From NCBI GenBank assembly GCA_948144175.1, contig CANXME010000532.1, positions 2,235,001 to 2,299,000 of the forward strand: DNA of 64,000 nt, written 5' to 3'. A program made the position numbers and the translations under genes. This document shows, in pieces, positions 3,071 to 51,564 of this stretch (position 1 is its first letter; every line of letters begins with the position of its first letter). A model generated the notes under the pieces. The model had not been told where the DNA came from, did not search any database, and saw only the letters and a program-made list of their open reading frames with translations. Origin of the DNA: Closterium sp. NIES-65. Taxonomy: Eukaryota > Streptophyta > Zygnematophyceae > Desmidiales > Closteriaceae.

Positions 3071-4442
3071 TCGTATTGGAGAAGGAGTTGGCTGCCCTCT
3101 CCATGCGGCCGGGAGATGATGTGAAGCCGGTCCTTGACAAGATCAAGGACACCTATGCGAGGATGGCAGCGGCGGGCAGCAAAGTGTCGCAGATGCAACA
3201 GTGCACCAAGATCATCTCGGTGCTCGACAACTCGTGGGACAACCTCATCCCCACCCTCAACGTTCAGCAGGACAAGTGGACGCCTGAGTGGCTACGGCAG
3301 CAGATCCTGCAGGAGGACTTCCGCAGGCGCCACATGGGAGGTGGTGCTGCCAACAAAACTGCTGAGGGGTATGGAGCTGCAGGAGGCAACAGAGGAAGAG
3401 GGGGAGGGAGAGGCCGAGGCCGTGGGAGAGGCTTTGGCAGAGGAAGAGGCCGAGGTGACTACAACGAGGGGCATGGGAGCTCTGGTGGCAAGGGGAGTAC
3501 CCGAATGGAGGGTGCGTGCTGGTACTGCAAGAAGGCTGGACACCCATGGTTCAAGTGTTTCAGCCGGCCTGAAGGATGGGCGCCTCCAGGCATGAAGCCG
3601 CCAAGTGGTGAACGTGCACGAGGTGGTGCTGTGCAAGGTTCAGGTGCACAAGGTGATGGTGCACAAGGTAAAGCCGACCCTGGTATGTTCCTCATGGTTG
3701 AGAACGTGCAAGGGAGTGGGGATGATGTGGGTTCAGTTGGGAAGGTTGTGATGCACCCCCTCACTCACTGGGTGATCGATTCAGGTTGCACGAGTTACAT
3801 GACTCCACGGGCAGATTTGCTTGATGAGGTGAAGCCCCCTGGGAAGATAAAGTTTGTGGCTGCCGCTTCAGGTGCCTTGCTCCCTGTGATTGGTGTTGGG
3901 AATGCCAAGGTTATGGGAGCTAATGGGGGGCTTGTGGGGCTGGGAAATGTGCTGTTGGTTGAAGGTTTATCCGCTAACCTCCTCTCTGTGCGCCGGCTGC
4001 AGAAAAGCAAGGCCAAAGTTACGTTCGGCCCAACCTGCTGCCGTGCAAAGCTTGGGAAGTTGCTGCTGTGGAATTTGGAGGAGAAGAGCAGCTGCATCAA
4101 GGACTTGTGGCAGCTGCCCATCATCCCTTGGAAGGGGAAACCACCAGCAACGGCAAAGGCAGCGGCAGCGGCTAAAGCAACTGCGGGAGGAGAGGAGACT
4201 GCACCAACTACAGGGGCCCTAGATGCAGTCAAGAAGGTACACCAGTCACAGCAGCCACATGGTGAGGTGCTTGCTGGTTTGGAGGCGACAGCTGCATGGG
4301 CAAAGGCTTCGTCTGGGAGTGGTGAGGCCGATTGGGAGACGTGGCATAAGAGGCTGTGCCACATCAACATTCCTATGCTGCAGAAGTTGGTGAAGGATGG
4401 GAGCTTGAAGGGATTGGAGGTGAAGGGGGCAGCGAAGGAGAT
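1601..4442 (+). repeat. Internal direct duplication (2 x 1421 bp) in element I
   Basis: 1601-3021 is repeated at 3022-4442. The copies carry scattered substitutions, for example in the Gly/Arg-rich coding stretch. The junction lies at a shared word: TGGAAGCTGC at 1601 against TGGGAGCTGC at 4443. Because 1421 is not a multiple of three, the duplication shifts the frame. This fits a template switch at microhomology during reverse transcription. Confidence 0.9.
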
Positions 4443-13244: not shown

Positions 13245-16072
13245 CTACAAGCCATGATCTTGCCATGCCTCAGCTGCTGCTCGGTGCAAGAGGCAGTGCC
13301 GATGGGCCAGCACCTGTAGAGTAAGCAAGGGATGGATGGGTGGATACACGTAACACGAGTCATGCCAGGATGTGCATCGTGCAAATGCAACACATGCTGT
13401 GTTACGGCACACAAAACAGACTGCAGGGAAGAGCACGAAATTGTCAGCTATTGGGGAGGCTGCAAACACTAGGAAGTCCAAGCGGGGCAATGGGGTGAGG
13501 TGAAGGAGCACGAGAGCAAGTGCACCAAGCAGAGGCTGCACGCTGCGCCTGGGTGCTGCGCACTGGGGGCCTGGGGACTGCGCACTGGGGGCCTGGGGAC
13601 TGCGCACTGGGGGCCTGGGGACTGCGCACTGGGGGCCTGGTGGCTGGGGGCTGGCGACTTGCAGAAAGATATCGCGCGAATGTGTGTACTGTCCTGGGCG
13701 TCAAGGCTGTGCCATGGTGCATTGACAGCCGAGCAGACCGCCCTGGCACATGGAAAGCCGGGGGGCATGCTTTGCAGTGCAGATCAGGCACTGCTGGGTC
13801 ACGCAGATAGCACCTGTACTTGCTGAGAGGTGGGAAGGCGATGATTACATGGTCATTAGGCTATTGGGAATAAAAGGCCAACATGTTCTTATGTTGGTGA
13901 GAGATGGGGAGGCAGATAGCACCTGTGAGAGATATTTCCACCTGTGAGAGATATTTCCACCTGTGAGAGATATTTCCACCTGTGAGAGATATTTCCACCT
14001 GTGAGAGATATTTCCACCTGTGAGAGATATTTCCACCTGTGAGAGATATTTCCACCAGGGCTAATTTTTCCACCTGTGAGATATATTTCCACCTGTGAGA
14101 GATATTTCCACCTGTGAGAGATATTTCCACCTGTGAGAGATATTTCCACCTGTGAGAGATATTTCCACCTGTGAGAGATATTTCCACCTGTGAGAGATAT
14201 TTCCACCTGTGAGAGATATTTCCACCTGTGAGAGATATTTCCACCTGTGAGAGATATTTCCACCTGTGAGAGATATTTCCACATGTGAGAGATATTTCCA
14301 CCTGCGAGAGATATTTCCACCTGTGAGAGATATTTCCACCTGTGAGAGATATTTCCACCTGCGAGAGATATTTCCACCAGCAAGAGATATTTCCACCTGT
14401 GAGAGATATTTCCACCTGTGAGAGATATTTCCACCTGTGAGAGATATTTCCACCTGTGAGAGATATTTCCACCTGTGAGAGATATTTCCACCTGTGAGAG
14501 ATATTTCCACCTGTGAGAGATATTTCCACCTGCGAGAGATATTTCCACCAGTGAGAGATATTTCCACCTGTGAGAGATATTTCCACATGTGAGAGATATT
14601 TCCACCTGCGAGAGATATTTCCACCTGTGAGAGATATTTCCACCTGTGAGAGATATTTCCACCTGCGAGAGATATTTCCACCAGTGAGAGATATTTCCAC
14701 CTGTGAGAGATATTTCCACCTGTGAGAGATATTTCCACCTGTGAGAGATATTTCCACATGTGAGAGATATTTCCACCTGTGAGAGATATTTCCACCTGTG
14801 AGAGATATTTCCACCTGTGAGAGATATTTCCACCTGCGAGAGATATTTCCACCAGTGAGAGATATTTCCACCAAAGAGAGATTTTTCCACCTGTTCTTCC
14901 CGTGGATAACCCGTTCTCGCATGAGCAACAGCAGGGTGGTACTCCCCTAGCCCAGCTGGGCACAGCAGAGGTCAAGGGGAGAGGGCAGAAGCTCATAGGC
15001 AGATGGATGGTATGGTGCAATCCTGCTCCAACATGATCAACGAATGGCAGTGCACCCATGCATGGCGGTGCGCCCATGCATGGCGGTGCATGTGGATGGG
15101 CTTAATCCCTTCCTCTGCGCTTCCTCACCCTTACGCCCATGCTGCGCTTCCCACCCCATGCTTCTCGTCCTGCTCGCACATGTGACGCGTCTGACCTGAA
15201 GATCACGGTGGTACCCGCCTCCCACGTATGCCGCCACTGGGATTCCCATGCCCACACACGTGTCCATCACCTGATGGTGGGTGTGCCGTGCATGTCAGAC
15301 GGCATGCACCATGCACATGCAACATGTAACATGCTCCATGCACATACAACATGTAACATGTAACATGTAGCATGCAACATGTAACATGTACATGCATGCC
15401 ACGGAATGGAATAACGGAAAAAAGGGCAGGTTTGAAGTCACTGGAGCAAGCGAATGGGTACGGGGCAAGGCAGTTAAGGCAGTGGGATGAGGGGGAGGAA
15501 GAGAGGGGAATGGAGGGTAAATTGGAAGGATGGGAGATGAGATGCATGGACGGCGCACGGCTGATAGTCGTTGCCGAGTTGGAGAGAAACAGGCTGGCTG
15601 GGGGCTTGGATAGGATGAGTATGCGTTACGCCATGCGAATCAGGCCATGCGCAGAGGAGAAGGCTGACAAGATGTCTCTGGTTATGAGACGTCTCAGAAC
15701 AAGAGGGATGTGGAGAGAAGCAAGCATCACCTGCATGTCTCTGCGAAACAGGCCCTGGTCAGTGAGGCATAGCCTGCGCGGCATGGGGCATGGGCATGGG
15801 CAGGGGCATGGGCAGGGGCATGGTCATGCGGCGAGAGAGGAGTTGGGAAGAGACAGCAAGATGATGGATGGAACAAGAGCACCGACTGAGGGGATTTTTT
15901 AGGCGTCTCTAATCAAGATGATGGAACGATGGCATTGGCAGAGGGAACATGCGCGGTGGAAGTGCGAGACGCGGAGTGGAAAACTGAGATGATACAGGTC
16001 GGTAGAAAAGAGAACGTTACATACAAATGCACACATATAAATTCATGTGCGTATCCACATACACACACATAT

Positions 16073-16133
<61 letters not shown>

Positions 16134-19100
16134 CACACACATACATACATACATACATACATACATACATACATACATACATACATACATACATACATAC
16201 ATACATACATACATACATACATACATACACACACACATACATATGTGTATGAAGGGAGAGAGACAGGGGAGGAGGGCAGGAGGGCGAGAGGGAATGCTTG
16301 CCGAGAGCATCATCTTTGTGTGGGTCGATACCAAGAGACAGATCTCACATCGTACAGCACAAGGTGAGGTCAGCACCCAGGTGACTTTTGAGTCGACTCA
16401 AAAGTCACATCGTACAGCACGAGGTGAGGTCAGCATCCAAGCTCATAATGGAATAGGTTCAAACTCCAGCACCGGCGTACAGCACCTGAAGGAACCTAGT
16501 CACATACTTGCCGAGGGCGTCACCCTTGTGTGGGTCGACACCAGCATCGTACAACACAAGGTCAGGGCGGAATGATGCGAGTACCTGCAGGTGAGGAGAT
16601 GCAGGTGCACGTGCAGGTGATTGGGAATGTGGGTGAGCGGGAATGTGAATGCACAAGTGCGGGGGTGAAGTTGGGAAACAAGGAAAGGTGATTCTATCAG
16701 CACATGTGCACGCTCACGCACAACACAGGTACATAGAACTGTGCAGAGGAGCAGAGGAGCAGGAGCAGACGCACCGAGGGGAGGTGGTGAGCAAGCAGGG
16801 CAAGGTACTGAGCATCCCCCGTTCCCTCTGGTACGTCCACATCCAAGTCGCTGCTCTGATGGCATGGGATGGCATGGCATGGCATGGGATGGCATGGCAT
16901 GGCATGGGATGGCATGGCATGGCATGGGATGGCATGGGATGGCATGGCATGGGATGGCATGGCATGGCATGGGATGGCATGGCATGGCATGGGATGGCAT
17001 GGGATGGCATGGCATGGGATGGCATGGCATGGCATGGGATGGCATGGCATGGCATGGGATGGCATGGCATGGCATGGCATGGGATGGCATGGCATGGCAT
17101 GGCATGGGATGGCATGGCATGGCATGGGATGGCATGGGATGGGAGAGACATTCTGCAAGGGGGTGTCAAAAAGTGCATGTGTCAACGAACGGGAGAATGG
17201 GAAGGAACGGAGACGAGGCACCAACACCAGTTTTACACAACGCTCCTTGCAATGCTAGTACCTCTTCTGAGAATACTCAATAGTGACTCAATCATAGCCC
17301 TTGTTGGCACGTGCTGAGATCGGCCTCAGTAACTTACAAGACAGAATACATGGTAACGAGAAGGTACCATGCACGAGTGAGTGGACTGTAAGAGTGGTAA
17401 TTATTCGCTATCATCATACTTAAACGATCCCTTTAAGGCATCACTCCACTTGTCGATTAATCAGTCATTCCCCCCTTTCAGTATCCCCTTACTCAGCTGA
17501 GCCGTCTCCTCGTAGGAGTACCACCATGCATCACTGTCCAGTCCTTATCGGGAAAACGAAGGCGAACAGAAGGAAGGAGGGGGAAGAGGAGAAGCAGTGT
17601 GCGGCAGCGGCAGGCAGGCAGGCAGGTGGGAGGGAGGGAGTGAATTGCTTGGTGGGGGGGAAGTTGGCGCCACAGTGCATGCATGCTGAAGGTTTGTTGA
17701 GGCGCCTCAAATCTCATCTCACCTGTTTGGTGGAGGGGAAGTTGGCGCCACAGTGCATGCTGAAGGTGAACACACTAGGGCATGCAGACAGCATGGCTGC
17801 TGTGCCGTCACCCTGTGAGAATGGGGGTTGGGGTGTGCGTGGGAATGGGGGTTGGTGGGAGGGAAGGGAGAAGGACATATTGACGGAGGGAGGGTGTGTT
17901 GGGAGTATGGAGGGAAGGGACCGAGTGAGGGAGGAACAGGGGAGGGAGCGAGGTGAGGAGAGGGGAGGAGGGAGGGGAACAGGGAGGGGAAGAGTAGAGA
18001 GAATCTGGAACTTCAAGGGAGAGGGGAGTTGGAGCAGGAGAACGGAGGGACCAGGTGCAAAGGGGGATTCAGGGGTCAGGGGGCCGAGAAGAATGGCCAG
18101 AAGGAGAGAGCAGGAGGGGTGATTGAAAAGGAGCGAGTGGGATCCGAGGGAGCATCACCTGGTGCACATCCAGGTCGACTATTGCCACGCGCTGCACTCG
18201 CTTCATCACCGCCCTCTCGCTCCCACCGCCTGCTGCTCCCTCCAGCAGCTCTCTCCACACGTCGTCCTCCTGCTCGCCCTCACCAGCTGCACCTGCTGCT
18301 GCTGATGGTGCTGCTGGCAACACCAACGGCAATGATGCTGTCTGTGATTGTGATTGCACTGATGCTTCTTGGGTTGGCGAAAGCTCTGCTGCTAGTGGCG
18401 ACGGTGGCAGTGGCGAGGGCGGTGGCAAGGGGTGCAGGGAGGAGGAGGCTGTGAGGGCAGCGGCCGTGACAGCAAGGTCGTTCAGAATGCAGTAGCCCGA
18501 CCCGTGGGCTCGAAACGCATGGTGCGTGCCTGGTGAACGGGCGGGTCGGGGTGGGCGTTGGAGATAGGTGGGCGTTAGAGACAAGGGTAACGTACAATGG
18601 TTACGCCCATACTGTATCCATTGGCATGGCAGGCAGGGACAGGGTGTGCATCTGAGAGGGCATGTTGTCTTGCCATGCACATGCACATACTCTGGTGCCT
18701 GCACCCACGCCTGCACAGGTACCGTACATCAACACATGCACACACATACACACAGATATGTGCACATTGTTGTGGAGAGAGAGTGTTTCGCCCACCAGTC
18801 AATACCAAAAAGGGATAAGGCATTTGGTTCAGGCTGTGCATGGTCCTATGGTCTAGTGGTTATGACGTCAGACTCTGAATCTGAAAGGCCGAGTTCAATT
18901 CTCGGTAGGACCTTTGTTGTACATTTCAATCACATGCAAAGCCACATTCTCTTTTCTAAGGGCGCTTCACCTCTCAGTTCGAAAAGCACGGTTGTTCGAA
19001 CAGGCGAAATGTTACATTATTCGCCACTCCTCGTATGGGTGTTCGTGACGTCGCTAGTCGGAAATTTCGCGAATTTGAAACAGAGTTGTCACACGGGGCA

Positions 19101-22100
19101 CGAAGCTCTCCATTCCGCACGTTCGAACAGAGTTGTTCGAACAAAGTTGGGTTTGGTGACAGGAATTCCGCATGGACGACTGATTTTATTGGTTAGCAGG
19201 CGTCGGGTCGCACACGAATGTTTGCGACCATTGCAAATGTCGCCATGCAGGAGAAAGTTCATCGATAAGGACATTGTTGTTGGGAAACAACAAGGTGAGC
19301 AGTAGTAGAAGAGCACGAAGAGACTGTTTGACTGGATGGGGGAAAAATGAGTCAAACTTGAATGGCAGACGACAGAATTATTTTTTTTGCGACGTTTCGC
19401 GAAGTCGTCCAGCACTTGGCGACGTCGCATGTTCGAACAGGCTGTCACCTCTAGTCACGAGCTGTCACATTCACCAAGGTGTTCAAATTTGTGTTCGGAT
19501 CTCGTCGGGAAACTGTTCGTACGGTGAATTCGTTACGTATGTTCGGATTTGGGCCTTCCAGCCCCGAGGTGATGCGCCCTAACCCACCCAAAAGCCGCAC
19601 TGCCACCACCTGCACCGATCCCTCGCCATTCAACGGCCTACGCACGAGCCCATTCATTATTCTCCCATGCTCTGCTAAGTGCTCCCTCCTGCCGGCCTTA
19701 AAGCTCAAGGCCGAAATTGCAGAGCGCGCCGGGCAAGATTACTTAAGTTGATGAAAGTGATGTTTTGAGTGTTGTTTGGCTGCGAATTGTGGTTACGTGA
19801 AGTGCGATGCAATTTGATTGGCCAACAGTTTTTTTGTCGAACAGGAGAGAAGGAACACCAAGAATATTGTGAGTGCAATTTGGGACTCGAGAACCAAACC
19901 GAGTTTCTCCCTGGGGTTTGCTGAGTCAGCGAAAACCCTAAGGGTGTAGCGAGAAGCTGGGCGAAACTAAACAGCCCAACTTCAACAAAGTCAACCTTAC
20001 TCTCCCACCACCCAACGGGCAACCTTAGTAAGGTTGAACAATTTGGGCCTTGAGCTTTAAATAGCTGAACTGCACCATGTTCTCCTCTCCCCTCTTCACA
20101 TGTACATGTAGGTAGGACAGGCAGAGGGGAGAGGAGGAGACAGACGGAGCCCCCAAGTTCTACACAGGCGTGTGGCTCGTTCCCAACCGCACGATGATCC
20201 GGACCAAGCCTAGTCCGGACCAAGAACTTGTAGTTTGGATAACACTGTACAGAAACTGTAGCATTTTTGGCCGTATGAGGCAAATTCTAGAATTTTTGGC
20301 CAATGTGGTCCTATGGTCTAGTGGTTATGACGTCAGACTCTGAATCTGAAAGGCCGAGTTCAATTCTCGGTAGGACCTGCTTTTTACCATTTTCCATGAC
20401 CGCTCTTTCACACCCCCTCACTGCCTAGCCCGTGCCTTCCACCCCCCTTTCCTCTGGACTCAAATCACATGTCAAGCCACCTTTTCCAGCCCATACAAGA
20501 GCAGCACAGCTGCCCCGCACACGAGCCCATCCACTCTTCTTCCAAGCTCCTCCAGGGTGCTCCCTCCAGTCGGCCTAAAATACCTGACTTCAACACCCTC
20601 TTCCCCTCTCCCGTCTCCACACACTTACTCCACTTCTCAACACGCAGAGGCAGGTGGGGTAGACAGCGGGGAGAGGAGGAGACGAACGTGCCTCATACTC
20701 ACCCTCATCATCCTCCAAAGAAAACTACCTCAGTCAATCAACACATCAACTCACTGCGAGTGCCGATCTCTCACCCCCCTCTCCCCTCACCCTTGTAACA
20801 CTGCCATGCCCCCCCTGCGAAGCTATCAATGAATATCAATCACATTCAGTCAGCTGTATTTTCAGCATCCTTACCACCTCACCCCTCCTCCCCTTCCACC
20901 GCCCAACAAGTGCAGCCTACCTCCTGCCGTGCTGCATGCAAGTCCATGTTCCAGTGCCAGCTGTGCCGTCTCCAACGTGCCTGCCACCTGGGGGAAGGGG
21001 GAGGAGCGAGTGGGGAGGAGAGTGGGGAGGAGAGAGGGGGGACGAGAGTGGGGAGGAGAGTGGGGAGGAGAGAGGGGAGGAGAGAGAGGAAAGAGGCAGG
21101 AGAGAGTTGGGGAGGGGGAGGAGAAAGGTGGGAGGAGGGATCAAGGGAAGACAGAGGTGGGGGGAAGAGAGGAGGGGACGAGCGAGGTGGGGAGACAGGA
21201 TGGAAGAGCAACGGAGCATGAGGAGGTGAGACACTGCACACACATGCTTCACGCAGGAGCAGCCGCCCTCCAACGCCCTGCCACGCATGCAGCTCACTCA
21301 CCCACACACATACCAACACCTCCCGTGCCCCGCCCTCTAACTCCCCTGCCCCCTACCTCAGCGCACCTCGGCGAGAGTTCGTCTAACGAGGGTGGGCGAC
21401 CAGGGGAAGCCAATGCGGCGCATGGCAGCCGAGGGCAGCGCGCCCTGGCAGACCTGCGCCAGGTACTGCGCACAGTGCACCTGGGGGAAGGGGGAGGGGG
21501 AGGGGAGAGGGGGGAGGGGGGAAATGGGGAGGGGGAGGGGAGAGGGGGGGAGGAAGGAAGAGGGGGAGGGAGGAGAGGGTGGGAGAAGAAGAGTGGAGTG
21601 GAGAGAAGGGGAGAAGGGGAATAGGGTGCATGGTGGACTTGAGGTGAGGAAAGAGCTGTGGGCGAAGGTGTGGAAGGTGGAGAGGGGGAGGGGGTAGAAT
21701 GCCGTGTTGATGCACCATAGACATGTGTTGGCGTGCGCGTGGCGTGTGCGTGGCGTGCGTATGGCGTGCGTGTGGCGTGCGTGTGGGGAAGACGCTTCTT
21801 GGGGCGGTGCAGAGAGCTGACAGTGCGTGGTCGGGGTTGCTGAATTCATAATAGCGCGGGGGGATGGGGAGGGAGAGAGCGAGCAACCAGGCGAGGAAAT
21901 CTAGCCAGCAAAACATGGACCAAGGGGGGGTGGGGAGGAGCGGGGAGGAGGGGGGAGGAGGGGGGGGAGGAAGACCACGAGGGGGTTTGGAAGGGAGGGA
22001 GGGACGGGAGGGAATGAAGGGGAGGGAGGGGAGGGACAGACCTACTCGAAGCAGGTCGGAAACGGGCGGCATGGGGTGTGGCGTGACCACCTGGAGAGCG

Positions 22101-45164: not shown

Positions 45165-48100
45165 CGCGCCGCTCCTCACTCCTCCTTGTTCCCTCCCACA
45201 GAGGCTCCCCTGCAGACTCTCCACCTGGACGTGCGGGGCCCAGCCCGCGTCCGTGGATAGGGCCACGAGCGGTACTTCCTGCTGGTCGTTGACGACTACA
45301 CGCGTTACACCACGGTCTTCTCCTTGCGCACCAAGGGTGAGGTCCCTGATGTTTTGACCCCTTGGATCCGCGCTGCTCTTCTCCAGCTCCGCGAGCGGTT
45401 CGCGACGGAGTTTCCCGTCCTGCGTACGCACTCTGACAGCGGTGGGGAGTTTTCCTCTGACCTCTTGGCAGCATTTTGTGCGGAGCACGGCATCCGCTAG
45501 ACGTTCACGCTTCCAGCCTCTCCGCATCAGAATGGGGTTGCTGAGCGCCGCATTGGCTTAATCATCGAGGTCGCTCGTACCTCCATGATCCATGCGGCTG
45601 CCCCCCATTTTCTGTGGCCATTTGCGGTGCGGTATGCTGCGCATCAGCTCAACCTCTGGCCCCGTATCTCCTTGCCGGAGACCTTGCCCACGCTGCTGTG
45701 GACGGGGAAGGTTGGCGATGCGTCGCGTTTTCGGGTCAAGGGTGCTCGTGCCTTTGTTCGCGATACCACCGCGGACAAGCTCTCCGCCCGCGCTGTTCCC
45801 TGTGTCTTCCTTGGCTTTGTCCCTGACGCGCCTGGTTGGCAATTTTACCACCCCACCTTGCACCGTGTCTTCCCCTCTCAGGACGTCACGTTTGACGAGT
45901 CGGTTCTCTTTTACCGTCTCTTCCCCTACCGCACTGCGCCTCTCCCCCCTCGCCGCTCTTCCTCGCTCCAGGTGCTACCTAGGCAGACCCCCTCCCCGCT
46001 CCCGGTCCTGCTCCTTCAAGTGTGTTTCAGGTAGACCCTCCTCCCTTGACTGCGCCGGTTGAGGTCACTGGTGACTCAGGTCCTGCTCGGGGTGCTGCTT
46101 CTGGGGGTGCTGAGCCTTGGGGTGCTGAGCGTGGGGGTGCTGAGCCTGGGGGTGCGGAGCCTGGAGGTGAGGAGCCTGGGGGTGCGGGGACTGTAGGTGC
46201 TGAGCCTGGGCGTGAGGAGTCTGGGGGTGCTGAGTCTAGGAGTGCTGAGTCTGGGGGTGTTTCACCTGAGGGCGGTGAGGCGTCTTGTGAGTAGTCTCCC
46301 TGGGGCGGCCGTCTCCGTAGTCGCTCCGCCGGTACCTTGTCGCTGCACTCTCGTTGTCGACTCCCTCTCTCCCCACAGCAGTTGCTTGAGTGGTACGTTA
46401 GCCGTCAAGGACGCGCTGCTGGATTTAGGGGCCCTGCTGAGGGAGGCGCTGGAGCTGGTGACTCTACTATTGGAGTTGTTTCTGTTGGAGGTTCTGGAGC
46501 TGCTGAGGATGCTGGAGGTGGAGGTTATGGAGCTGCTACAGGTGCTGGCGCTAGAGGTTCTGGAGGTGCTACGGGTGCTGGCGCTAGAGGTTCTGGAGGT
46601 GCTGCGGGTGCTGGCGGTGAGAGTTCTGAGTCTGCTGTTACGAAGTTTCCTTGGAGTAGCCGCCTTCGTCCGCGTGTGCCTCTCACTTCACAGCAGCTGC
46701 ACGACTGGTACGGTCGCCGTCAGGGTCGCGCTTCTAGAGCTCGGGGCTCTGCTGCTGGAGGTACTTCTGCTAGCGTCACTAGAGCTGGGAGCGGTGTTGG
46801 TCCCGGAGGTGCTCATACCTTAGGTACTGGAGCTGGTGGGGGTGGAGGTGCTGAGCCTGAGGGTACTGCTGCTCGAGACCCTGGGACTGAGGTGTCGGTT
46901 CTGGGAGTGCTGCTGCTCATGGAGTTGGTCCAGTAGGAGCTGGAGCTCAGGGTTCTGGAGCTGCTGAGGGTTCTGGAGCTTCTGGAGGTGCTGGAGCTTC
47001 TGGGGGTGCTGGAGCTGCTGGTGCTGGTGGCACTGCACAGCCACACCTGTTCTTTGCTCCACCGTCTCCGTCGTCTCAGCCACCGTCTGACTCTGTGCTT
47101 CGCCAGGTTCTTAGTCTCCCTTCGTCTATTGGTCTTCCGTTACAACCTGGCTCACCGCTGCCTGCTCCTTCTCCTTACACTGAGCAGACAGGGGGTTTTA
47201 CTGAGCGTCGTGAGCCTGCGTCGCGTCCTGTCTCGCCTGCTCGTTCTGGTAGTTCCGGTCGCCGTGTTCCTCGTTCGCGTCAGCCGGTTGTCTCCGGCAC
47301 CCACCTCGTCCTTCCTCTCCTCCGCAGCGTGTTCCACTACCGTCCCCTCCTGCGTCTTCTCCGCCTACCGTTCCTGAGCATGAGTCTGACCGCACCCATG
47401 CTGCTCACCCTACTGTCACGCATCTACTAGCCACAGTTGTCACTGACCCATCGTCTAAGTCTGCTGCTTCGTCTGCCTTTGTTGCTGAGCTTGTTCACTT
47501 TGCTGCTGCCTGACGTCTAGACTACGCCGCTAGTCTTGTTGCTGAGTCGAAGTCTATCTGTCCTCCGTCCGTCGGGGGTGAGTGTGCTCTTGGCACGGAT
47601 GTCCTTGAGGACAGGCACGAGGACCTTGAGTGTCTTGCAGCCGCTGCGCCTCATCTCGTGTCCATGCTCCTTGCCCCTGAGGGAGACCCGGATGCTCCAG
47701 ACATCCCGACCCCGCACTCTTACGCTGAGGCGATCGCGGGTGAGTACTCCTCTAAGTGGCAGACAGCCATGGATGCAGAGATGGCATGCCACAGGCACCT
47801 ACGTCGACAAGGTTCCCCCTACTGAGGCGAACATCGTCAGTGGCATGTGGATTTTCGAGGTGAAGCGGCCACCAGGTTCTCCGCCTGTCTTCAAGGCTCG
47901 TTACGTTGCTCGAGGTTTCAGTCAGCAAGAGGGAGTTGACTTCTTCCAGACCTTCTCCCCCACCCCAAAGATGACCACTCTTTGGGTGCTGCTGCACGTT
48001 GCCGCTCAGCGTGACTACGAGCTTCACTCTCTTGACTTCAGCACAACTTTCTTACAGGGAAGCCTGCATGAGGAGATCTGGCTGCGCCTCCCTCCTGGCT

Positions 48101-49260
48101 TCACTGGGTCGTTCCCTCCCGGTACCCAGTGGAGCCTCCGGCGGCAGGTCTACGGTCTCCGCCAGGCGCCACGTGAGTGGCACGACACACTGAGGACTAC
48201 ACTTGCGGCTCTTGGGTTTGCTTCTTCGACTGCTGACCCGTCGCTGTTTCTGCGCACTGACACTTCGCTGCCGCCGTTCTACATCCTCGTGTACGTCGAC
48301 GACTTTGACTTTGCTACTGCTGACACTGAGGCTCTTGCCCTGGTGAAGTCGGAGCTGTAGAAGAGACACACGTGCAAAGACCTGGGTGAGCTGCGCAGTT
48401 ACCTTGGCTTGCAGATCACCCGGTAAAGAGCACGCCGCACCATCATACTGACTCAGTCACACATGGTGCAGCAAGTCCTTCAGCGCTTCGGCTTCACCTG
48501 GTCCTCGGCACAGGCCACTCCTCTGGCTACAGGTCACTCGCTCTCAGCTCCACCGTCAGACGAGTCCGTAGAGCCGAGTGGTCCTTACCCAGAGCTTGTT
48601 GGCTGCCTCATGTACATGATGACTTGCACTCGTCCTGACCTCGTGTACCCTCTTGGCCTTTTGACCCGCTACGTGGCTCCTGGTCGGCACCAACCAGAGC
48701 ACATGGCTGCTGCCAAGAGGGTACTGTGCTACTTGTGCAGTACATCAGGCATGGGGCTCGTGCTTGGAGGTAGGAGCTCAGTTGTTCTCTGTGGGCACTC
48801 AGACGCTTCTTGGGTTGACGACCAGGCTACACAGCGTTCGTCACAGAGTTACACCTTCAGCCTTGGCTTTGGTTCAGTTTCTTGGCGTTCTACACGCTCG
48901 TCTTCAGTTCTCAGCTCCAGTTGTGAGGCTGAGATCTACGCCACAGCCATGGCTGCACAGGAGTTACGCTGGCTCACCTACTTGTTGACCGACTTGGGAG
49001 AGCGGCCTCATTCTCCTCCAGTGTTGTACGTCGACAACAAGGCTGCCATTGCTTTGTCTGAGGAGCATAGACTGGAGCACAGAACGAAGCACATCGCTCT
49101 GCGTTACTTCCTGGCTCGAGAGTTGCAGCAGCGTGGCCAGCTTCGTCTGCGTTACGTGGCCACTCGGGCCAACACTGCTGATATATTCACCAAGGCACTT
49201 TAGTCTGGTGATCATCAGCGTTTTTGCACTTTGCTGGGACTTGTGCCCACTCTTCCTCAC
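45165..49260 (+). pseudogene. Element A pol, continuation after element B (integrase core, spacer, RT, RNase H)
   Basis: The integrase continues from 45170 with stops at about 45259 and 45498 and frame changes. Conserved pieces remain: RTHSDSGGEF, MIHAAAPHFLWPF, WQFYHPT. A spacer of GGAEP-type repeats lies at about 46080-46290, then Gly/Ala/Ser repeats to about 47050. RT resumes near 47760 (GMWIFEVKRPPG, YVDD at about 48295). RNase H reads to a TAG at about 49201 in place of the usual Gln/Pro codon. Stops at about 48358 and 48423 break RT. Non-functional. Confidence 0.8.
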
Positions 49261-49496
49261 TTGCTGTAGACCTTGTTTGTACTATGATCTATTTATATAT
49301 ATCTGCATACTTGCTTTGCTACGTAGAGATCACTGTGATGTTTGTGTTGCATATATACCTCTGCATGTGAACGGGCCTTGTGGCCCTTTGTTTGTGCTCA
49401 GTATGTGTGGTGAAGTGTGATCCACCCTGAGCTTGCTTTGCTTTTCTTGACTGGTCTTGTGACCTCTTGCTCTCCCCCACTTTGCCTATGGGGGTG

Positions 49497-49629
49497 GGTC
49501 AAACATATGTTTATATCATATTTGTGGGTAGGCTGTAGTGGGGTAGATTATGTGGGGTATAACCCCTTAGGGTTTTTCCTTGTACTCATTCTCTCGATAG
49601 TGCAACTCACCCATGCCTAGCTTCTAAGA
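49497..49629 (+). repeat. 3' LTR of element A (133 bp)
   Basis: Matches the 5' LTR except for the first base and one other. Preceded by the tail CCTATGGGGGTG, the probable polypurine tract, and followed by AGTGC. Confidence 0.92.
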
Positions 49630-51564
49630 AGTGCAGATGGCCGGGTCGAGGGGGCGGCCCGACACGCCCTTGGCAGCCGTCATGTTGACCGTACTGGGCG
49701 GGCAGGTGGCTGTCAGAATCCCAGCCACTAACCACTGGGATAAAAGGGCTTGTTAAGTAGCGGGTCAGTGCGCCCATAACCCCCCAGGCCAACATGCTAG
49801 TAGCCCTTCCCTAGGATCAATCGGGTATCACCAGTGAACTTTGACACCCCCCCGCACTGGGATGCCCGAAGTGCATACACCGGGATTCGAACCCGAGACC
49901 TTCACTCTGATACCATGTCAGAATCCCAGCCACTAACCACTGGGATAAAAGGGTTTGTTTAGTAGCGGGTTAGTGCGCCCATAACCCCCCAGGCCAACAT
50001 GCCTGTAGCCCTTCCCTTGGATCAATCGGGATCACGAGTGGACCTCTTACAGTGGCGGGGATGGTGAGCGGGTCGCAGGACAGGGGGATGACCGGGATCA
50101 CTGTGGGACCCCCGTAGCACGCTGTGTCCTGCACCTGGTGGTGGGTGGTGGGAGGTGGGGAGGTGGGAACTGGGCATGGCAAGTTCAAGAAGCAGCAGCA
50201 GTGAGGAGCGGCACACGGAAGAAGCTGACAAGAAAAAGGAGCGTGCGTGCAAGCTGCTGTGATATGAACGCGAGCGCCTGGTTGACTACCCTGGAGCGCG
50301 CTGACTTGGGGGCGACGCTCTGACTTGGGGCCGACAATCTGACTTTGGGGCGACGCTCTGACTAGGGGGCGACGCTCTGACTTGGGGGCGACCTGCAAAT
50401 GGACTCACGGAGAATGTGGCGTTGAAGCCGGGGATCTGCTGCACGATGAGCGGCACGATCATCAGCTCGAGCATGTCCTCGGGATATATCTGCTCACGTT
50501 GCCCAACATGGAAATCCCTACTGCACGCGAACGCCGCAACAGAACGGAATTCGACAAGAGATTGGAGATCACTGTAGCCATTGTAATTTCGGAATGGAGA
50601 TTGGAAGGAAAATTCCATAGGGTAGAGCAAAACCACTGTAATTTCGGGATGGAGAGTTTATAAAGGAAAGTCAAAAAGTGTGACAGGAGCGAATCTACTG
50701 TAACACGGGAACGTGTAACGCGGATCTGACATGATATCATTGAGCAGGCGTTGAAAATCGCTGCGTAGTAGTCGATGCCGCAGATCTGCAGCATGTACTT
50801 GCCGGGCTTGCCCGTGAGGTGGTTGCCCGAGTCTGCCACACACGCTGGCGAGAACAACGGAGCAGAAACGGGGGAGGCGGAGGGGGGTGGGAAGGCAAAC
50901 AGCTAGCGGGTGCGAGTTAAGTGCCGCAGTGCGTTGAACGAACGAGTGGGGTTCGTAGAACATGCAGTGTTCAGGTTAACGTTGGTTTGGTCTGCTTGCT
51001 ATCTGTCTCACCGGGATTGCACGCACGGCACAGGCGAGTTGCTCGACGATGTGCGCGCAGATATCATTGCCCTTCATGAGAGTACTGATCTGCACGCACA
51101 CACTCTTACATACAAAACAATTTTTTTTGGAACAATTTTGCAGAGCAGGTGCAGCGTGTAAACGAATGCAGCCCGGAATGCAGGTAGGCAGGCAGGCAGG
51201 CGGCACTGATGCTTCGTCTAGATTGAAACATCGATTTCCTTATCATCGCGCGACCACTTACGCTAGCCGTCACGGAGATACCGGCGATATGCCCCACACC
51301 GGGCAACACCGCGGCGGTAACGTTAATGGCGAGCGCCTGAACGGCGAAGGCATCAGGGCAGCACGACATGCGCGACGCTCCCACACACCGCGTGGGGGGC
51401 ACTGCTGGCTTCGTCGATGACTTGCCCGTAAGCGGACAGTTGGGGTATGCCGTCCCGGCATTGGAACTAGACGGGAGCAGCAAAAGCGTCGCAGCAAGCA
51501 GCGCCGTGAGAAGCTTCGCCGCGTTGAAGCGGCGATTCCAAGTCTTTGCCAGCCAAGTGGCCAT
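49630..51564 (-). pseudogene. Gene 2 (gene 1 paralogue), 5' part with four exons and start of the fifth
   Basis: Start ATG at 51564 gives MATWLAKTWNRRF and the hydrophobic leader LLTALLAATLLLLPSSS. Exon 1 ends at 51262 with a GTAAGT donor. The other exons align with gene 1: KGNDICAHIVEQLACAV (about 51020-51100), TGKPGKYMLQIC (about 50790), LMIVPLIVQQIPGF (about 50440), and DTACYGG (about 50130). Relative to gene 1, exon 2 has lost one base (CAGTGC to CGTGC) and exon 4 about four bases at its start, so the frame is broken independently of the insertions. The TRIM at 49711-50051 and element A at 49629 cut the last exon. A 19-bp tandem repeat (about 50302-50392) fills part of intron 4. Confidence 0.85.
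49711..50051 (-). mobile_element. TRIM (341 bp) with 136-bp LTRs inside gene 2
   Basis: Two 136-bp LTRs (49711-49846 and 49916-50051) both begin TGTCAGAATCCCAGCC and end ACA. They enclose only 69 bp and are flanked by GTGGC (49706-49710 and 50052-50056). On the minus strand a primer site TGGTATCAGAG (initiator tRNA-Met type, 49905-49915) directly follows one LTR, and a G-rich tract (about 49847-49853) precedes the other. Gene 1 shows the uninterrupted site. The LTRs differ at over a dozen positions, so this is older than A and C. The internal domain has a perfect tRNA T-arm (GGGTTCGAATCCC). Confidence 0.92.

Follow-up and report, generated by a model that had tools for sequence, protein, structure and literature searches.

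Does the junction between the LTR and the primer binding site of a very small LTR element fold like a tRNA, or is its likeness to a tRNA of another kind? This question is raised by a TRIM in the Closterium sp. NIES-65 genome, lying in a stretch of 64,000 nucleotides of contig CANXME010000532.1, the whole of which is called the window here. A preliminary description of this DNA had claimed that the junction folds like a tRNA and that the element may be transcribed by RNA polymerase III (Pol III) or may mimic a tRNA. We analysed the anatomy of the element, its family in the genome, the fold and the sequence of the junction, and the chimeric copies in which a part of the junction is exchanged.

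The TRIM of the window and its family

The description of the locus as a TRIM was confirmed. The element is complete, is shorter than 1 kb with no room for mobility proteins, and has two 136-bp LTRs, a primer binding site (PBS) and a polypurine tract (PPT), with an exact 5-bp target-site duplication (TSD), GCCAC, at its ends (Table 1). The 5′ and 3′ LTRs are identical in 125 of 137 aligned columns. We take the PBS word to correspond to the 3′ end of the initiator-Met (iMet) tRNA.

Table 1. Positions of the TRIM and of its parts in the window
Feature	Position	Strand	Basis
Complete TRIM, 341 bp	49711..50051	-	LTR pair, internal domain, TSD
TSD, 5′ side, GCCAC on minus strand	50052..50056	.	exact repeat at element ends
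TSD, 3′ side	49706..49710	.	exact repeat at element ends
5′ LTR, TGTAAGAG...TTCTGACA	49916..50051	-	LTR-LTR alignment
3′ LTR, TGTCAAAG...TTCTGACA	49711..49846	-	LTR-LTR alignment
Internal domain, 69 bp	49847..49915	-	sequence between LTRs
PBS TGGTATCAGAG	49905..49915	-	directly inside 5′ LTR end
PPT GTGCGGGGGGG	49847..49857	-	directly before 3′ LTR
A box in U5, window copy TGGTTAGTGG; family form TGGTCTAGTGG, one base lost here	49930..49939	-	motif
B box GGTTCGAATCC (T-loop word), internal domain	49883..49893	-	motif
Stem 1, 5′ arm CCCAG	49940..49944	-	covaries in family
Stem 1, 3′ arm CTGGG	49925..49929	-	covaries in family
Middle stem, 5′ arm ATTCTGA (LTR end)	49918..49924	-	without covariation
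Middle stem, 3′ arm TCAGAGT (PBS side)	49904..49910	-	without covariation
T-like stem, 5′ arm TCGGG	49892..49896	-	family alignment
T-like stem, 3′ arm CCCGG	49880..49884	-	one C-G pair broken in 12/40 copies
TTTT, 5′ LTR, directly before stem 1 and A box; putative end of R	49947..49950	-	TTTTATC in family
TTTT, 3′ LTR; putative Pol III terminator	49742..49745	-	46/49 copies
CAA motif, 5′ LTR, putative transcription start region; window reads CAAACC	49955..49957	-	CAAGCC in family; chimera switch point

Two other features adjoin the element. A copia-like element on the plus strand (window 47536-49610), with an RT-like frame followed by an RNase H-like end, directly adjoins the TRIM in opposite orientation, and tandem repeats of 19-bp period, CTGACTTGGGGGCGAC-like, lie just outside the TRIM at 50278-50392.

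The family is large. The word TGGTATCAGAG followed by GGTTCGANTCC within 8-30 nt was found at 3380 places in the 874-Mb genome and the reversed control at none, and a pattern free of both boxes, TTATGGGCGCACT with the PBS 45-70 nt behind it, was found at 3172 places. The 100 matches listed of these 3172 form the 100-junction sample used below, which was thus chosen without reference to the A or B box. In 53 fetched loci 56 TRIM-type junctions were present, and the second LTR was recognisable in 49 copies. An exact 5-bp TSD stands at the LTR ends in 35 of the 49 and is absent in 14 (shifted control, 4 of 1880). The identity between the two LTRs has a median of 0.978 and a range of 0.820-1.000 in 47 copies; the copies are therefore young and related, and conservation within the family is weak evidence. 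Three internal subfamilies (a, b and c) can be told apart, and 3 bp between the PBS and the B box are missing in some copies.

Some copies depart from the common form. The LTRs of two of them (L050, L059) end in CTGAGA rather than CTGACA and still have exact TSDs, so the terminal CA may be dispensable. A PBS with an extra C (TGGTATCCAGAGCG) occurs in several of the matches listed (e.g. C43:221343, C43:274541 and C73:1230383), as if a sub-lineage had amplified with an altered primer site.

Fold and sequence of the junction

The three arms which had been noticed on the minus strand are present at 49880-49944 in the order given, the LTR/PBS boundary lies inside the middle loop as claimed, and all three hairpins are contained in the minimum-energy fold of the 85-nt junction. 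The further claim, that the junction folds like a tRNA, did not hold. The fold energy is not exceptional (z -1.21; 28 of 200 shuffles were as good), and ARAGORN gave no tRNA at the window TRIM and none in nine TRIM loci. The Rfam tRNA model RF00005, with its cut-off of 29 bits, scored only 13.7 in the window; its match uses the middle hairpin as D arm and has almost no anticodon arm. In six other TRIM loci the model was absent at E<=10, and as a positive control it gave 53.1 bits to a genuine tRNA gene from this genome. A cloverleaf recognised by tRNA models, as in a tRNA gene, was thus not found in the TRIM, and the lack of an acceptor stem was noticed earlier and is agreed.

Conservation of the stems between copies, the check which the preliminary description had proposed, was analysed in 40 distinct junctions, two rows of which (L032, L055) carry other LTRs, and the outcome differs from stem to stem. 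Stem 1 (CCCAR/YTGGG) is conserved: 97.5% of its cells are paired and double-sided changes are seen at three pairs, counts which the relatedness of the copies inflates. Its closing pair is A-U in 28 of the 40 junctions and G-C in nine, and the G-C form is seen in two internal subfamilies (10 type a copies and one of type c); in the 100-junction sample the closing bases are A/T in 85, G/C in 8, A/C in 3, G/T in 3 and C/C in 1. The T-like stem fails in part, one pair being broken in 12 of 40 with no change on both sides. In the 7-bp middle stem only 3 of 40 junctions have the outermost pair, 5 of 40 have another pair broken, and double-sided changes are absent. Its conservation is hardly informative, since an exact or near-exact PBS was the criterion for choosing the sampled copies, and this middle arm is simply the U5 end plus the PBS.

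A folded RNA mimic, in which the tRNA-like region would bind reverse transcriptase, Gag or the primer, would account for the covariation of stem 1 and for its G-C form in two subfamilies. We regard this mimic as very unlikely, because there is no acceptor stem, the breaks of the T stem are uncompensated, the tRNA model is weak in the window or absent in the other loci, and stem 1 is by eye not in register with a tRNA D stem; moreover, the many copies with its double change may go back to just one or two events, and two of the 40 rows have other LTRs. Stem 1 probably has an additional role at the RNA level near the PBS. A fold of the whole tRNA is ruled out by ARAGORN, the tRNA covariance model, the ordinary energy and the two stems without covariation. 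The tRNA-likeness of the TRIM lies in its sequence, not in a folded structure.

The usual A box of the family, TGGTCTAGTGG, is identical to the A box of a nuclear tRNA gene found in this genome (locus L079), which ARAGORN labels tRNA-??? and which is by eye a tRNA-Gly(GCC) gene with a short intron. The LTR word CCAATGGTCTAGTGGT matches CCAGTGGTCTAGTGGT of this gene in 15 of 16 bases; in the internal domain the match is 16 of 16 for CGGGTTCGATTCCCGG of one subfamily and 15 of 16 for CGGGTTCGAATCCCGG of the remaining subfamilies. Local alignment of the junction to the gene scored 28.5 for L038, a copy found by a pattern containing the B box, and 25.5 for L003, which came from a similarity search with the window element, while 500 shuffles of the L038 junction had a mean of 8.4 and a maximum of 17. 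Among dinucleotide shuffles of L003, a typical copy, an exact A and B pair at 30-100 bp occurred in 0 of 100,000 and an exact B box alone in 71. An accidental likeness of the U5 end, the iMet PBS and a short inverted repeat to tRNA arms would suit the unexceptional 85-nt fold and a middle arm made only of U5 end and PBS; with homology of both halves above all 500 shuffles and no shuffle holding both boxes, such an accident is hardly credible.

The words CCARTGGTCTAGTGGT and CGGGTTCGATTCCCGG of the L079 gene stand in the TRIM in equal order and at near-equal spacing; the TRIM differs from the gene in having no acceptor stem or anticodon arm and is not a tRNA gene. To judge from the sequence, the D half and the T half of a tRNA gene flank the U5 end and the PBS, which take the place of the anticodon arm. 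The pair TGGTCTAGTGG and GGTTCGANTCC at a gap of 25-50 was found at 3293 places in the genome and the reversed control at none, and among the matches listed one is a real tRNA gene, that of L079. Two tRNA-Gln (CTG) genes lie in the window itself, at 18842-18913 and 20307-20378, with equal model scores and 1465 bp apart.

A- and B-box-like words at tRNA spacing had also been claimed. This is right for the family, whose two commonest forms have their boxes 44 or 47 bp apart; in the window the A box, TGGTTAGTGG, is one base shorter than TGGTCTAGTGG and fails the exact A-box test. The exact A box TRGYNNARYGG is present in 83 of the 100 junctions of the box-independent sample and the 1-nt-short form of the window copy in six, so that a perfect A box may be unneeded or the short copies may stem from few sources. 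Among the 30 nearest whole-element relatives including the window copy, a sample biased towards its closest kin, the B box is exact in all 30, the A box in 24 and TTTT is present in 28.

The proposed split promoter and the chimeric LTRs

LTR elements are generally taken to carry their promoter inside the LTR, where it is regenerated at both ends. For the Closterium family we consider it probable, from the features of the sequence, that a non-autonomous TRIM is mobilised by copia and transcribed by Pol III from a type-2 (tRNA-type) promoter which the LTR/PBS/internal junction divides in two. TFIIIC would bind both the A box, which lies in U5, and the B box, which follows the PBS in the internal domain, and Pol III would start at the CAA of the 5′ LTR, about 18 nt upstream of the A box. 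It would pass the first TTTT, which would be too near the start to stop at, read the PBS and the internal domain and terminate at the TTTT of the 3′ LTR, and the resulting RNA would begin and end with the same sequence of about 10-12 nt, a repeat (R) that would serve strand transfer. This reading is built on the anatomy of the TRIM, the homology of both halves, the box spacing, the motif positions and the copia chimeras; the transcription steps (TFIIIC binding, the CAA start, passage of the first TTTT and the stop at the second) are proposed by analogy with Cassandra.

As 3′ and solo LTRs have no B box, the whole promoter would be present only at the 5′ LTR beside the internal domain. A fuller version, for which the chances seem to us about even, is a Pol III promoter which exists only as a junction: the LTR would supply the A box and the sequence past the PBS the B box, with reverse transcription rewriting the intervening stretch from the host primer tRNA in each cycle. 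The 5′ end alone would then be a promoter, and the TTTT by the A box would both act as terminator in the 3′ LTR and define an R of about 10-12 nt.

For plant tRNA genes, the available part of PMC11700998 describes transcription starts at CAA motifs and stops at downstream poly(T). In the 100 junctions the start-like motif is CAAGCC in 83, AAAGCC in 10, TAAGCC in 5 and another in 2, the 15 with AAA or TAA being a point against the proposed start, and TTTTATC is present in 91. Of the 49 copies, 46 have TTTT ahead of the U5 hairpin in the 5′ LTR and 46 have it there in the 3′ LTR. In the body between the LTR TTTTs of these copies there are five TTTT words (two being T4 itself) versus 44 expected from composition, a scarcity which is one weak test at the level of the family and not an independent one per copy, as the copies are related.

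The subfamilies were compared column by column. The mean U3 difference between them is 0.12-0.14 per column, and each A-box column of the 3′ LTR is below 0.1. The 5′ LTR of type b has raised differences in U5, with 0.23 in the A box, probably due to the inclusion of a chimeric row (L034/L035). The B box differs between subfamilies only at its free position, which is no evidence because L031-L060, most of types b and c, were found by a pattern requiring the B box.

These observations bear on an ordinary Pol II TRIM, in which captured fragments of a tRNA gene or a SINE would make the boxes mere passengers and transcription would come from Pol II promoters in the LTR or from read-through. In its favour, canonical TRIMs are taken as Pol II-transcribed in the available text of PMC10886601, and the LTRs of SMART bear a TATAAAA box by that of PMC3281118. 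The Pol III half of the earlier reading draws its support from sequence (boxes homologous to a host tRNA gene, their spacing, CAA and TTTT); its mimic half is not supported, given the missing acceptor stem and the two stems without covariation. Against passenger boxes stand the A-box columns, which stayed alike between subfamilies while U3 diverged, and an LTR in which no clear TATA box is seen by eye. Taken with the chimeras below, we judge this Pol II reading unlikely.

Only nine junctions have a spacing of 14-44 nt; six are different short forms and three are TRIM/copia chimeras, which represent two independent insertions. The first (C2057, L071) has the TSD ATGGG and two identical LTRs; the second, in C10 and C2096, is one insertion in duplicated sequence with the TSD TAGCT. 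In both, TRIM U3 and internal domain are joined to a foreign LTR end behind ACA, where the normal LTR continues AGCCCTTTT, so that the switch point (ACA/AGCCC) lies 5 nt before TTTT. Both outer LTRs of each insertion bear the switch, as is expected if it arose in reverse transcription.

The genome has 105 places that match the first foreign end, CATTCCCTGTTCTCTTATTCTCACA, at <=2 mismatches. The 14 exact ones outside L071 comprise five pairs 6.8-7.0 kb apart, one pair 3.2 kb apart and two single ones. One example (L075/L076) has LTRs ending in CATTCCCTGTTCTCTTATTCTCACA, the TSD AGGGG and the PBS TGGTATAGAGC, with no B box behind the PBS. It encodes gag-pre-integrase and integrase domains, and its RNase H tail is by motif presumably copia-type; the copia label is based on these domains and this tail. 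The second foreign end, ACATTCCTCATTTCTTCACA, occurs at 2087 places at <=1 mismatch. Copia-type LTRs and the TRIM have similar termini, TGTCA...ACA.

The position of the joint suggests a TRIM RNA that extends to the CAA and served as acceptor near the proposed 3′ end, without fixing the exact end, as the breakpoints share a 2-nt microhomology (CA) and may mark sequence rather than an RNA end. The donor probably contributed less than a full R-U5. The tally of chimeras covers the nine short-spaced junctions, four long-spaced ones and the 100 listed of the 3172 standard-spaced. In the four long-spaced junctions, which are longer U5 variants, the A-box region is not replaced in any (printed part), and the 100 standard-spaced all keep it, often with point changes. 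The A box was thus replaced by a copia end in just two independent insertions (3 of 9 short-spaced and 0 of 4 long-spaced junctions) versus 3172 standard junctions, 100 of them listed, which argues against the Pol II reading; in its favour, the clean chimera L071 without an A box, with TSD and identical LTRs, did integrate, whichever promoter its parent RNA may have used.

Copies truncated at the presumed start were also surveyed by eye. No pile-up was seen at AACAAG, a point against the split-promoter reading: about 5-6 of 22 rows are copia-like joints there, and a control anchor in U3 gave about five copia-like joints in the 100 listed of 101 rows, the rest being mostly changes within the G run. 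Targeting of the Pol III start by copia, or SINE-like copies beginning at the start, was rejected, as the joints are no commoner than at the U3 control. One locus (L035) considered as a copy beginning at CAA looks by eye like a nested copia insertion instead.

Another mixed form was seen by eye in L032, L036 and L046 (partly in L055), with the order copia LTR, PBS, TRIM internal domain, TRIM LTR, PBS-like word and copia leader. In L032, L036 and L046 one or two TRIM units stand at the copia LTR/PBS border, with differing copia LTR types. The form may have arisen by template switching of reverse transcriptase or by recombination of a one-LTR circle at the PBS, and both fit.

Comparison with known small elements

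Pol III transcription has been proposed for Helenus, a TRIM with a tRNA-like sequence inside its LTRs (TRIMp3; Kojima 2024, PMC10886601, in the available text, as for all statements on Helenus here). The plant element Helenus-1_SMo has an LTR of 120 bp and an internal part of 85 bp. Helenus and the Closterium family share tRNA-derived A and B boxes, PBS, PPT, a 5-bp TSD (for Helenus in plants and fungi) and close size. The tRNA-like sequence of Helenus lies in the LTRs, whereas the LTR of the Closterium family holds only the A-box half, the B-box half being in the internal domain, with the U5 end and the PBS in place of the anticodon arm. The family thus has the two boxes and the 5-bp TSD of Helenus, and its tRNA-derived sequence is not contained in the LTRs; by the LTR-based definition it is not Helenus but would work like Helenus. 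The distinction from plant Helenus-1_SMo, an element of similar size, is provisional, as it is drawn from the definition of Helenus.

With Cassandra, as far as the available texts of PMC7215508 and PMC10853983 describe it, the TRIM shares the PBS word TGGTATCAGAGC (PMC7215508), tandem LTR-internal units and, on the reading proposed here, a Pol III promoter and a short R; the Cassandra transcript has an 18-bp terminal duplication, as told in the available part of PMC10886601. The promoter of Cassandra is of 5S type and inside the LTR, while the one proposed here is of tRNA type and split. No match to the 5S rRNA family was found in window 49600-50150 or in six TRIM loci. Asteraceae have Cassandra-like TRIMs which lack the 5S promoter and carry TATA boxes, by the available text of PMC10853983, a parallel to the exchange of promoter parts in the chimeric LTRs. 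SMART, with FRetro129, is likewise a very small TRIM with a putative copia partner of differing LTR; its LTR has a TATA box, and the words 'polymerase III' do not occur in the available text (PMC3281118).

Among the matches listed, no precedent for dividing a promoter between LTR and internal domain was found in titles and abstracts. If the split-promoter reading is true, a promoter divided over LTR, primer site and internal domain would be another way in which a 0.35-kb element could do without a Pol II promoter and still be transcribed in one direction, and the family would offer a naturally occurring case of an extremely short R. Chimeric LTRs, though rare, give a genomic route to TRIM RNA ends and helper elements, and the A/B box test can be applied to further TRIMs with seemingly promoterless LTRs.

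Further observations concern sequence elsewhere in the window and the assembly. Long overlapping minus-strand frames at window 13861-15077 come from a tandem repeat, WKYLSQVEISLTGGNISHR-like. The rbcL translation from this assembly matches Rubisco large chains of form I best (9chz, followed by 4hhh) and is by eye of streptophyte type; many rbcL copies of equal score were found on contigs C75, C97, C162, C1848 and others (24 matches in all), which are presumably plastid sequence assembled several times.
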